This document shows positions 780-51,067 of a stretch of DNA of 64,000 bases, piece by piece. A program made the position numbers and the translations under genes. The notes below the pieces were generated by a model. The model was not told the origin of the DNA. It was given only the letters and a program-made list of their open reading frames with translations, and did not search any database. The DNA lies in NCBI RefSeq assembly GCF_001267535.1, contig NZ_JRXE01000024.1:1-64000 (forward strand), given 5' to 3'. Position 1 is the first letter of the stretch, and every line of letters starts with the position of its first letter. The stretch comes from Winslowiella iniecta. Its GTDB lineage: Bacteria > Pseudomonadota > Gammaproteobacteria > Enterobacterales > Enterobacteriaceae.

Positions 780-3473
780 TTAAAACCACTGGCCAAACTT
801 GCGCATATACAGCTGTTTCATACCCTGGCTCAGCAGACAATAACCCAGCAGCGTGGCCAGTAACCATGGGAAATAAGTCAGCGGCAATGATTGCAGGCCA
901 AACCATGAATTAAACGGTGAGAACGGCAGGCCGATACCGATAATCACCACCAGAATTGTGGTCAGCATAATAGGCCAGGTGGCACGGGCCTGAATAAACG
1001 GAATCTTCTGGGTGCGTAACATATGCACCACTAACGTCTGTGACAGTAATCCCTCAATAAACCAGCCGGACTGGAACAATGCCTGATGGTCGGCACTGTT
1101 GGCACCAAAAATATGCCACATCAGTGCAAAGGTGGTGATATCAAAAATTGATGAAGTTGGCCCCATCCACAGCATAAAACGACCAATGTTTTTGGCGTCC
1201 CATTTACGTGGTTTGCGCACAAACTCTTTATCCATTTTATCCCAGGGTAAGGCCAGCTGCGAAATATCGTAAATCAGGTTTTGCAGCAGCAGCTGGATAG
1301 CCAGCATCGGTAAAAAAGGTATAAAAGCACTGGCTACCAGAATCGAGAATACGTTACCAAAGTTTGAGCTGGCGGTAATATTGAGATATTTGATGATATT
1401 ACCAAAGGTCTGGCGACCGACCAGTACGCCTTGTTCCAGCACCATCAGGCTTTTTTCCAGCAGGATAATATCAGCGGACTCTTTGGCAATATCGGTGGCA
1501 CTGTCGACGGAAATACCGACATCCGCCGCCCGCAGAGCTGCCGCATCGTTTATGCCGTCACCAAGGAAACCGACGGTATGACCATTTGCCTGCAACAATG
1601 TCACCACTCGCTCTTTCTGAGACGGCGTCAGTTTGGCAAAAATCGTATGCAGTTCGATCCGTGGTTTCAACTGCTCATCGTTTAACTGCTCAATCTCATC
1701 GCCCAGCATCGGTACACCCGCATCCACGCCAAGGTCGCGGCAGATTTTGGCGGTAATCAGCGGATTATCGCCGGTCAGAATTTTAATCTGTACGCCATTG
1801 TGTTGCAGGGCGTGAATCGCTGCTGCGGCACTCTCTTTCGCGGGATCGAGGAAGGTCAGCATACCGCACAGCGTTAAATCACGCTCATCCTCGATCGTAA
1901 GACGTTGATACCAGTTGTTGCTCTCCATGGCACGGGTCGCGACCAGCAAAACACGATAACCTTGCTGGTTAAGCTCGGCTGCGCGCCGGGTAATATCCTC
2001 ACGCCAGGCTGGCGTCATCTTTTCAACCTGACCATCAAGGTTAAGGTGAGTGGTGATGGCCAGCATCTCTTCCAGCGCACCTTTGCAGACCAGCTGATGC
2101 TGACCCAGCTCATTACTGACGCTGACCGACAGGCGGCGACGGGTGAAATCAAACGCCAGCTCATCGACTTTACGATAGTTGCGTGGCAGATCCTGTGTGT
2201 CGCGGGCGAATTCCAGCACCGCACGATCCATCAGGTTTTTCAGCCCGCTCTGGTGGAAACTGTTTAACCAGGCCAGATCAAGCACCTGGCGGCAGGGGCG
2301 TCCAAGCACATCAAGGTGCTGCTCCAGTGCAATATGATCCTGCGTCAGGGTGCCGGTTTTGTCGGTGCACAGCACATCCATTGCGCCGAAGTTCTGGATC
2401 GCATTCAGGCGTTTAACCACCACTTTGCGGCGCGCCATGGCCATCGCACCTTTCGCGAGATTAGTGCTGACAATCATCGGCAGCATTTCCGGGGTTAAAC
2501 CGACCGCCACCGCCACGGCAAACAGTGCCGCATCCAGCCAGTCGCCCTTGGTCATGCCGTTAATCACAAAGACAATCGGCACCATAATGAACATAAAGCG
2601 GATCAGCAGCCAGCTGACGCTGTTTACTCCACGATCAAAGGCAGTGGGCGCGCGTTTGCCAACAATGTTTTTTGCCAGTGAACCAAACCAGCTCTGGTTG
2701 CCGGTCGCCACCACCACGGCGGTTGCATGACCACTGACGACATTGGTGCCCATCAGGCAGACATTTGGCAAGCCGGGCAGGGCACCTTCACCAATTTCAT
2801 GCGCAGTTTGTGGTAGATCGTTCAGACAAAATTTCTCCACAGGCAAGGCTTCGCCGGTCAGCGCTGCCTGGCTGACCAGCAGATCCTGCGATTCAATCAG
2901 TTTGATATCGGCCGGGATAATATCGCCTGCTGATATCGAGATAATATCGCCCGGCACCAGCTGTTGCTGATTGACATACATCCACTGCGGAGTGGAATGA
3001 TCAACGTGACGGCGGCGAGTGGTCACTTGCGTGCGAACCAGTGATTTCAGCGCATCCGCCGCTTTATTAGTGCGAAACTCCTGCCAGAAACGCAGCAGGC
3101 CGCTCAGCCCAATCATCACTGACATAATGATCACGCCAGTCAGATCGGTTTCTTCACCCTGCTGAGCAGGCAACCAGTAGTCGGTGAAGAAACTGATACT
3201 GGCGAGTCCCATCAATACAAAGATAAATGGATTTTTAAACGCCATCAGTAGCTGAATCAGCGCATGCGGCGCTTTTTCCTGCGCCACCTGATTGAGGCCA
3301 AACTGCTCGAGTCGTGATTCAGCCTGTTGGCTGGTTAACCCTTTTGGGCTGCTGTTTAGAGTGGAAAAGGTGCTGTCAATGCTGACCTGCGCCTCGTTGG
3401 CAATCGGCCAGTTTTTGGCTTTAGAGTGGTGCTGGCGGCGCGCTGGTTGCGCCATATCGATCATCTGAGTCAT
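780..3473 (-). CDS. mgtA: Magnesium-translocating P-type ATPase MgtA
   Basis: 897 residues (E. coli MgtA is 898). Inner-membrane P3-type ATPase that imports Mg2+ down its gradient at the cost of ATP. Seen in order: N-terminal cytoplasmic tail, first membrane pair (about 80-130), actuator domain with LTGEALPVEK (205-214), M3/M4 with GLTPEMLP, the phosphorylation motif DKTGTLT with Asp371, the hinge motif GDGINDAAAL, and six C-terminal membrane helices. The start ATG at 3473 is preceded by GGAA about 10 nt upstream. The gene stands alone and is preceded by a leader with a small ORF and an overlapping intrinsic terminator (3530-3619), the layout of Mg2+-responsive mgtA leaders in relatives. No damage is seen. 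Confidence 0.97.
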   Translation of the reverse strand: MTQMIDMAQPARRQHHSKAKNWPIANEAQVSIDSTFSTLNSSPKGLTSQQAESRLEQFGLNQVAQEKAPHALIQLLMAFKNPFIFVLMGLASISFFTDYWLPAQQGEETDLTGVIIMSVMIGLSGLLRFWQEFRTNKAADALKSLVRTQVTTRRRHVDHSTPQWMYVNQQQLVPGDIISISAGDIIPADIKLIESQDLLVSQAALTGEALPVEKFCLNDLPQTAHEIGEGALPGLPNVCLMGTNVVSGHATAVVVATGNQSWFGSLAKNIVGKRAPTAFDRGVNSVSWLLIRFMFIMVPIVFVINGMTKGDWLDAALFAVAVAVGLTPEMLPMIVSTNLAKGAMAMARRKVVVKRLNAIQNFGAMDVLCTDKTGTLTQDHIALEQHLDVLGRPCRQVLDLAWLNSFHQSGLKNLMDRAVLEFARDTQDLPRNYRKVDELAFDFTRRRLSVSVSNELGQHQLVCKGALEEMLAITTHLNLDGQVEKMTPAWREDITRRAAELNQQGYRVLLVATRAMESNNWYQRLTIEDERDLTLCGMLTFLDPAKESAAAAIHALQHNGVQIKILTGDNPLITAKICRDLGVDAGVPMLGDEIEQLNDEQLKPRIELHTIFAKLTPSQKERVVTLLQANGHTVGFLGDGINDAAALRAADVGISVDSATDIAKESADIILLEKSLMVLEQGVLVGRQTFGNIIKYLNITASSNFGNVFSILVASAFIPFLPMLAIQLLLQNLIYDISQLALPWDKMDKEFVRKPRKWDAKNIGRFMLWMGPTSSIFDITTFALMWHIFGANSADHQALFQSGWFIEGLLSQTLVVHMLRTQKIPFIQARATWPIMLTTILVVIIGIGLPFSPFNSWFGLQSLPLTYFPWLLATLLGYCLLSQGMKQLYMRKFGQWF

Positions 3474-3529
3474 GTCTGCTTATTCCAAATTATACGCACG
3501 GCAATCTCTCTCAAAGTGAGATAGACGTG

Positions 3530-3587
3530 AAAAAAATATGGCGTTGCAGGTGGGGAAAAGAACTAGCTCAGTGCTCCCACGCAACGC
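3530..3587 (-). terminator. Intrinsic terminator/attenuator in the mgtA leader
   Basis: Read on the minus strand, a 12-bp stem (GCGTTGC+GTGGG pairing with CCCAC+GCAACGC, with a 2-nt bulge) is followed by CATATTTTTTTC, a 7-U tract. Arms are at 3576-3587 and 3541-3554, the U-tract at 3530-3536. The stop codon of the leader ORF sits in the loop, and the ORF covers the whole 5' arm. Ribosome position on the leader should therefore decide whether the terminator forms. It lies 57 bp upstream of the mgtA start, so this is an attenuator and not the end of another gene. Confidence 0.75.
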
Positions 3588-3619
3588 GGATTACGCTGCG
3601 TACTGGGGTGCTCGTCCAT
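3563..3619 (-). CDS. 18-residue mgtA leader peptide (MgtL-like)
   Basis: Short ORF with a perfect ribosome binding site (AAGGAG, 6 nt before ATG 3619) and stop TAG at 3563-3565. It encodes MDEHPSTQRNPRCVGALS. It lies about 90 bp before mgtA on the same strand. In E. coli and Salmonella the mgtA leader encodes MgtL, also 17-18 residues with acidic and proline residues near the N-terminus, which couples ribosome behaviour at low Mg2+ or low proline to transcription into mgtA. Here the acidic pair D2-E3 and prolines P5 and P11 are compatible with that idea, but the sequence is not the E. coli one. The last codons lie in the 5' arm of the terminator described separately. Its function as a regulatory leader is inference. 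Confidence 0.65.
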   Translation of the reverse strand: MDEHPSTQRNPRCVGALS

Positions 3620-3631
3620 GGTAACTCCTTA

Positions 3632-3650
3632 ATTATCACCGGGTGATAAT
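3632..3650. promoter_or_regulatory. Perfect 9-bp palindrome, operator-like
   Basis: ATTATCACC-G-GGTGATAAT, a perfect inverted repeat with a single central base, lies just upstream of the leader ORF's ribosome binding site and overlaps the candidate -10 of the mgtA promoter. It could be a repressor operator or a small hairpin at the 5' end of the leader RNA. I cannot assign it to a known regulator. Confidence 0.5.
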
Positions 3651-3689: not shown

Positions 3690-4352
3690 CTGTGCAGCGA
3701 TGGCGCAGCAGAAATACGGCTGAGCTTCAGCCTGGAGGAAAAAGGGTATGGGAAAAGATCAGCATCATAAGTACTCGTCTGTTTATAGTTTTCAAAGCAG
3801 ACGAGCCGGAGGGATCGCTGCTTGCCAGGGCGGCAAGCAACAGGCTTGCCTTAATTAGATCGGTGACTGTCCAAAAAAGGTTTCTCCACAATAATTCGCG
3901 GGACGAACTATACTGCCGCTCCCGCAGGCTGTAAACCGTACTTCCTCAACCAAAGCTCAACGTTCGGGTTTTAGCCAGTTAGCCTGTTGTCGGCAACTAT
4001 TTTGCGCTCAATGAGATTTTTCCCTCCGTTTTAAATAACCACCGGTTATAGATGTGCTCTTAAAGAAGCATAACCGCTGAGGAAATCAGGGTGGTGCATG
4101 CTAAGTGACTGGCTATACGACTCATTCTGGCCTGCTTCTGGTCACGGAAATGCGCATTTATTCGGTGGTTGACGAATCGCGCCAGATAATGTTGCTTTTT
4201 TGTAAACAGATTAACAAGCAAGCGAAATCCTGATATGCTGCCCCACGCGAAACCGGGCACCTTTACACCTTACCCTACACAAGGAGGGTTAATCACCCGA
4301 CGTGAAAAAAGGTGGTCGGAAAGACAAATACAATGAGAGCGAGGAGAACGTC
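3690..4352. other. Long intergenic region between mgtA leader and acnB
   Basis: About 660 bp with no convincing gene. It contains two clear hairpins: CTCGTCTG/CAGACGAG (3774-3805) and TGCTTGCC/GGCAAGCA with a 5-nt loop (3819-3839), the latter followed by a third GGCTTGCC copy. There is also a short palindrome ATAACC-ACC-GGTTAT near 4035-4049. The right part should hold the acnB promoter(s); TGATATGCTG near 4232 is a possible extended -10. The left part could hold a small RNA, but no U-tract terminator supports a defined transcript. Confidence 0.4.

Positions 4353-50206: not shown

Positions 50207-51067
<861 letters not shown>

Follow-up and report, generated by a model that had tools for sequence, protein, structure and literature searches.

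A probable mgtQ–mgtB translational switch in a composite leader lacking mgtC in Winslowiella iniecta

Results

The pump gene and the upstream part of its leader

The window, the first 64,000 nucleotides of Winslowiella iniecta contig NZ_JRXE01000024.1, carries on its minus strand (positions 780–3473) a gene for an 897-residue Mg2+-transporting P-type ATPase. The original prediction had called this gene mgtA and had framed the short ORF in front of it as an mgtA leader whose peptide is unlike MgtL. The NCBIfam scores point to the other subfamily. The window pump scores 1525 bits with NF011702/PRK15122 and 1339 bits with TIGR01524; the MgtB of a Serratia plasmid ranks the two models in the same order (1757 and 1455 bits), whereas E. 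coli MgtA ranks them in reverse (1230 and 1607 bits). In a tree of 44 rows, computed from N-terminal parts of at most 470 residues and carrying a long-branch warning that includes the E. coli MgtA branch, the window pump falls into a 41-row set with Serratia MgtB and apart from E. coli MgtA. Subfamily scores and tree position thus identify the pump as MgtB-type and not MgtA-type. The closest named relative is Winslowiella arboricola, with 86% identity in the best segment. Within the GTDB genus the pump is present in 30 of 37 genomes, four with the window type (84–100%) and 26 with another type (65–69%).

A sigma70-like promoter, TTTACA-17-TATAGT, is placed at 3907–3935 of the same strand on a consensus match only (10 of 12 positions; three such sites were found in the region versus 0.8 expected). 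Adjacent to it, at 3946–3962, is a direct repeat CGTTGA-N5-GGTTGA, which we take to be PhoP-box-like. Between promoter and pump gene, a UUG-start ORF, MDSHRSN (3851–3874), shares its start, TTGGACAGTCAC, with the 12-residue ORF that precedes mgtC in genus g70 (probably Salmonella, see below). It is followed by a proline-motif ORF, MMLIFSHTLFPPG (3727–3768), whose HxLFPP motif recurs in the mgtC leaders of the Serratia plasmid and of g70. Both motifs are those of g70 and of the Serratia plasmid locus L097, and we refer to the two ORFs as mgtM-like and mgtP-like. Together with the ORF described in the next section, the leader holds mgtM-like (from 3874), mgtP-like (from 3768) and mgtQ-like ORFs in that order. 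A UUG-start mgtM followed by an LFPP-type mgtP is also the arrangement of the mgtCBR leader, as presented in PMC3641672. Unlike that leader, the one in the window runs to mgtQ–mgtB and not to mgtC, and its mgtP-like ORF is shorter, with two prolines; in Salmonella, mgtM and mgtP encode 12 and 16 residues (PMC8092293).

Further elements were recorded on the minus strand of this region. A second triad, GGCAAGC / GCTTGCC / GGCAAGC, lies behind mgtM (3820–3850), and its letters co-change in Tatumella and Pantoea 1.19 when compared by eye. The hairpin scan lists GGCUGA-AGC-UCAGCC at the mgtP stop (3718–3732). An inverted repeat, ATTATCACC-C-GGTGATAAT, immediately precedes the mgtQ ribosome site at 3632–3650. 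By eye, hairpins made of other letters (ATCGCC/GGCGGT and CACCA/TGGTG) occupy this position in several relatives. An Rfam riboswitch was considered and rejected. No family reaches its cut-off in the leader region, and at gathering scores the only match in the whole window is a t44 RNA at 50209–50315 on the plus strand (79.6 bits).

The leader ORF is most likely mgtQ

Directly before mgtB, at 3563–3619 of the minus strand, lies an 18-codon ORF, MDEHPSTQRNPRCVGALS plus stop codon, preceded by a Shine-Dalgarno sequence AAGGAG at 3625–3630. These are the ORF and the perfect ribosome site on which the original prediction was built, and both are there as described. The peptide opens MDEHP, an acidic/proline start with acidic codons at positions 2 and 3. 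Its place, ribosome site and acidic start agree with the mgtQ–mgtB unit of g70 and with Salmonella mgtQ as described in PMC8092293: an 8-residue ORF between mgtC and mgtB with Asp2, Glu5 and an AGGAGG site, 51 nt from mgtC and 219 nt from mgtB. What the two share is a short ORF with a strong ribosome site just 5' of an MgtB-type gene and acidic codons at its start. The window ORF is longer (18 codons against 8), has its acidic residues at 2 and 3 instead of 2 and 5 and a proline at residue 5, and directly follows mgtP within the 5' leader instead of lying between mgtC and mgtB. The latter position is the usual one and does not define mgtQ. The same source ties mgtQ to mgtB, reports that a Brucella mgtB located ahead of mgtC is itself preceded by an mgtQ-like ORF, and already lists an mgtQ ortholog for Erwinia tasmaniensis. 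Most likely the leader ORF is mgtQ, known from Salmonella as a translational switch; it does not match MgtL.

An acidic/proline-rich leader peptide in front of a Mg2+ pump is also a property of the mgtL–mgtA locus of E. coli and Salmonella (PMC11552253). Early ribosome drop-off at the acidic-proline N-terminus might then decide Rho-dependent termination ahead of the pump gene, for which that source offers mgtA and corA as precedents. The transporter subfamily, the ORF and the neighbours, however, are those of mgtQ–mgtB (E. coli mgtA sits by treR and ridA), and the leader region has no Rfam family at cut-off. An MgtL/mgtA leader was rejected on transporter subfamily and neighbours, and we regard MgtL-like Rho control as most improbable.

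Conservation in relatives, the check that had been proposed for the leader, extends to the ORF, the ribosome site and the pairing segments. A DNA search found the leader in four of 60 genomes, the genome of the window included. A covariance model built from 13 leaders gave 62 matches (E ≤ 0.01) in 59 of the 392 genomes of the GTDB family, and the best 30 of the 62 all have an mgtQ-type ORF with an AGGA-type site, which the aligned leaders also carry. The mgtQ-like ORF was recovered in 14/14 leaders in one search and in 29/29 in a wider set, composed of the window and 28 others collected with the pump start after near-identical loci had been dropped. All 29 have an acidic residue, Asp or Glu, at position 2, a constancy that is partly by construction because the patterns used to locate the ORF demand it; Pro stands at position 4 or 5 in 28 of them. 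Beyond its start the peptide drifts and even shifts frame (L008, L078–L081) while the RNA segments remain, which argues that the pairing segments are maintained as RNA.

Mutually exclusive hairpins 1:2 and 2:3

Three segments of the minus strand can form two exclusive stem-loops. Region 1 (ACGCAGCGU, 3593–3601) and region 2 (GCGUUGCGUGGG, 3576–3587, codons 11–15) both lie within mgtQ, and region 3 (CCCACCUGCAACGC, 3541–3554) lies 3' of its stop. Stem 2:3 comprises 12 bp (7 + 5, with a 2-nt bulge) between arms 3587–3576 and 3554–3541, enclosing a 21-nt loop that contains the stop codon. This is the stem originally described, with the last codons of the ORF in its 5' arm. The stretch 3589–3536 folds at −19.8 kcal/mol, as good as which none of 200 shuffles folds. 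An alternative hairpin, anticipated as one way the leader might work, does exist: regions 1 and 2 form 9–10 bp inside the ORF. Folds computed with no ribosome are mixed, since a 113-nt stretch favours 1:2 and a longer stretch contains 2:3.

Both helices are conserved. All seven core pairs of 1:2 and of 2:3 form in each of 13 alignment rows (91/91 cells per helix). Covariation on this alignment is not significant (69/500 and 500/500 shuffles) because the paired columns barely vary, so that the result speaks of conservation. More divergent leaders retain the potential for 2:3 with other letters; L093, for example, can form it as GUUGCCUAU/AUAGGCAAC, and L094 can form both helices. In Salmonella, according to PMC8092293, stem-loops 1:2 and 3:4 likewise stand against 2:3, and 3:4 holds the mgtB ribosome site. 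The window leader follows this plan, including a link between region 3 and the mgtB ribosome site; unlike in Salmonella, both arms of its 1:2 helix are inside the ORF.

The U-run behind hairpin 2:3

Seven U (3530–3536) follow stem 2:3, a U7 run that sets the window apart from Salmonella mgtQ. It was originally described as following the stem, which is only loosely true, since four nucleotides (CATA) intervene. From this configuration a classical attenuator had been proposed, in which 2:3 is an intrinsic terminator and translation to the end of the ORF occludes the 5' arm, allowing read-through. The 12-bp stem, its −19.8 kcal/mol and the nearby U7, kept in 4/4 leaders of the window's clade, speak in favour of such a terminator. 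By a TransTermHP-type formula, however, the tail of 2:3 scores −2.51, which would rank 12th among the 27 gene-end hairpins of the window, whereas the best seven score −3.18 to −5.64 with T-runs starting at the stem. The 21-nt loop also speaks against a terminator, and a hairpin scan restricted to loops of 3–8 nt does not list 2:3.

The distribution of U-runs among relatives also argues against a terminator. Tails were scored in 28 of the 29 leaders, the window included and L095 left out. A T4 run begins 4 nt behind 2:3 in 4/28, the window's clade (the window, L066, L039 and L038, the only leaders with this distance), and 7 to 9 nt behind it in 8/28; within 25 nt of the stem, 16/28 have none. 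An intrinsic terminator as the conserved function of 2:3 was rejected on tail scores and U-run distribution. Salmonella region mutants had no effect on transcription (PMC8092293), and PMC3641672 notes no stem-loop resembling an intrinsic terminator in the mgtCBR leader either. Moreover, attenuator logic would turn mgtB off when mgtQ is translated slowly. Of the original claim, the translated-leader switch with exclusive hairpins is supported and the intrinsic terminator is not. A transcription-attenuator reading of the leader is unlikely, and the classical form set out above we hold to be very unlikely.

A dual arrangement confined to the window's clade may also be envisaged, in which 2:3 frees the mgtB ribosome site while the U7 partly terminates or pauses transcription, so that mgtQ would set both. 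The U7 of the four clade leaders would fit, as would the T7 that two Tatumella leaders (L015 and L032) carry 7 nt behind 2:3. The tail is weak, however, and the effects on transcription and on translation would pull in opposite directions. The U-run may also have a different role in L039 and L038, where most of it is base-paired in the 3:4 fold (P unpaired 0.36 and 0.34), unlike in the window and L066 (0.70 and 0.82). We consider the dual arrangement improbable.

A TATAAT lies at 3494–3489, downstream of the U-run and ahead of mgtB; since G018, G020 and L038 do not share it, it is probably no promoter.

Ribosome position on mgtQ and opening of the mgtB start

The mgtB ribosome site (UUUGGAAU) and start codon constitute region 4 (3471–3490, minus strand), which is partly paired with the flank of region 3. 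How much energy its opening is predicted to require varies with the position of the ribosome on mgtQ. With a ribosome on codon 5, covering region 1, the mgtB start costs 2.8 kcal/mol to open; with a ribosome further on, covering region 2, it costs 8.7 kcal/mol, a difference of +5.9. Shuffles of the sequence from the mgtQ stop to the mgtB ribosome site gave a mean difference of −0.1 (sd 1.8), and 0/100 of them reached +5.9. In silico, then, region 3 helps to hold the mgtB ribosome site and pairing with region 2 frees it. The direct hold in the window is moderate (P unpaired 0.56 for the Shine-Dalgarno sequence and 0.77 for the AUG; 0.86 for the AUG of L066). In the sister genomes L039 and L038 the AUG is held strongly, at 0.02 and 0.00.

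Across the 29 leaders the difference is positive in 22, and in 16 of the 29 at most five of 100 shuffles reach it; L006, L072, L073, L074, L084, L091 and L095 show no gain. The closest relative, L066, gains +3.4, a value reached by 10/100 shuffles, and for L039 the figure is 8/100. For the four g70 units, whose mechanism has been published, the gain is +4.0 to +6.5; since between 3 and 15 of 30 shuffles attain the observed value, the measure is non-specific there. The difference is +0.4 in the unit L108 of another genus. It is positive in 13/26 leaders of the MKEPP type from the same GTDB genus, rows that are rough because the masks were set to the window geometry and L041, L056 and L064 were probably scored at an upstream ATG. 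Support for the modelled wiring of the switch is thus good in the window but uneven in the other leaders.

The original prediction had expected full translation to give read-through and early drop-off to give termination. The folds instead indicate that 2:3 is favoured by a ribosome near codon 5 and not by one that continues along the ORF, which occludes region 2. According to PMC8092293, the Salmonella equivalent of 2:3 is the ON state, frees the mgtB ribosome site and affects translation only. A reading of 2:3 as the OFF state was rejected; the terminator-looking hairpin is probably, by this analogy, the ON structure of a translational switch.

mgtC and the order of the leader elements in Enterobacterales

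A locus scan with the MgtC of the genome itself found no mgtC between mgtP and mgtQ in the window and its clade. The only MgtC match of the genome is on another contig, where a lone mgtC (L107, G000:C1 around 165422) has its own leader of mgtM-like and mgtP-like (HSLFPPGRCC) ORFs and no mgtB directly behind. Hence the mgtM–mgtP leader is present twice in this genome, and mgtC and mgtB are split.

The same scan covered 1–2 kb upstream of mgtQ in 73 loci, a redundant set, and found mgtC there in 15: Serratia L097, L087–L094, L044, L045, L058, L061, L062 and, only partly, L057. In L097 the order is mgtM–mgtP–mgtC–mgtQ–mgtB. This locus is on AP028600.1, a Serratia marcescens plasmid typed as mobilizable that has the whole chain aboard. 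A pattern search for the published mgtQ start matched five of 392 genomes, four of them in genus g70. The g70 units have an 8-residue MDIPExxK ORF with AGGAGG, an ORF of MgtC length ending 47–50 nt upstream and a gap of 216–219 nt to mgtB; their leaders contain a 12-residue ORF starting TTGGACAGTCAC and 16-residue ORFs such as MFMFKHALFPPPSTRR. The spacings are near the 51 and 219 nt given in PMC8092293, from which g70 is probably Salmonella.

In other loci the chain is incomplete. Among the 26 MKEPP-type loci of the genus of the window, 19 lack both mgtC and an FPPG motif in the interval from the mgtM-like start to mgtQ (L040, L042, L043, L046–L056, L059, L060 and L063–L065). Such leaders, with an mgtM-like start and an MKEPP-type mgtQ before mgtB but no mgtC, would represent stepwise loss of the chain. 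In L108 (G062:C6 around 98950), mgtM-, mgtP- (NSLFPPPR) and mgtQ-like (MDIPERFIFIFY) ORFs are clustered before mgtB. No long ORF separates mgtP from mgtQ there, so that L108 is apparently another mgtC-less leader.

Discussion

We favour the view that the window carries a Salmonella-type mgtQ–mgtB translational switch, whose leader additionally contains mgtM- and mgtP-like switches and lacks mgtC. Sequence and computation show the three ORFs, two exclusive and conserved pairings, and an opening cost that changes with ribosome position; the reading as a whole, which draws on Salmonella, we consider likely. It is because mgtC is absent from the locus that the mgtM- and mgtP-like switches share a leader with mgtQ.

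On the Salmonella model, transcription from the promoter with the PhoP-box-like repeat would yield a leader of about 430 nt. A ribosome that slows or falls apart at MDEHP, near codon 5, would cover region 1 and leave region 2 free. Region 2 would then pair with region 3, region 3 would stop helping to hold region 4, and MgtB would be made. When mgtQ is read fast or is not read, 2:3 would not be favoured, region 4 held and little MgtB produced. The mgtM- and mgtP-like ORFs would presumably add control of transcription by ATP and proline tRNA, to which the Salmonella mgtCBR leader responds (PMC3641672).

From Salmonella we infer the destabilisation of the ribosome, the dependence on L31 and Mg2+, the control by PhoP and the effect on translation; among the papers searched, PMC8092293 alone names mgtQ, and its experiments were done in Salmonella. 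The genome of the window encodes the PhoQ sensor and two L31 genes, so that the parts needed by the Salmonella model exist. Also counting against it are the acidic residues at positions 2 and 3 instead of 2 and 5, and the geometry at codon 2, where a ribosome would reach no further than the margin of region 1.

The type of switch is known, and what is unusual is its composite three-uORF leader lacking mgtC; a literature search found no report of an mgtC-less composite leader. One may speculate that loss of mgtC fused three switches, responding to ATP (mgtM), proline tRNA (mgtP) and ribosome destabilisation/Mg2+ (mgtQ), in a one-gene leader of about 430 nt, and that gain of the U7 in the window's clade then made the mgtQ hairpin dual in transcription and translation. 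We give this scenario little credence; if true, a purely translational mgtQ switch would have turned dual in the clade.

The reading as an mgtQ–mgtB translational switch corrects the tempting interpretation of a terminator-like hairpin as an attenuator. Across Enterobacterales, the chain mgtM, mgtP, mgtC, mgtQ, mgtB occurs whole, without mgtC, or without both mgtP and mgtC, and these natural variants make the weight of each uORF testable with natural leaders.
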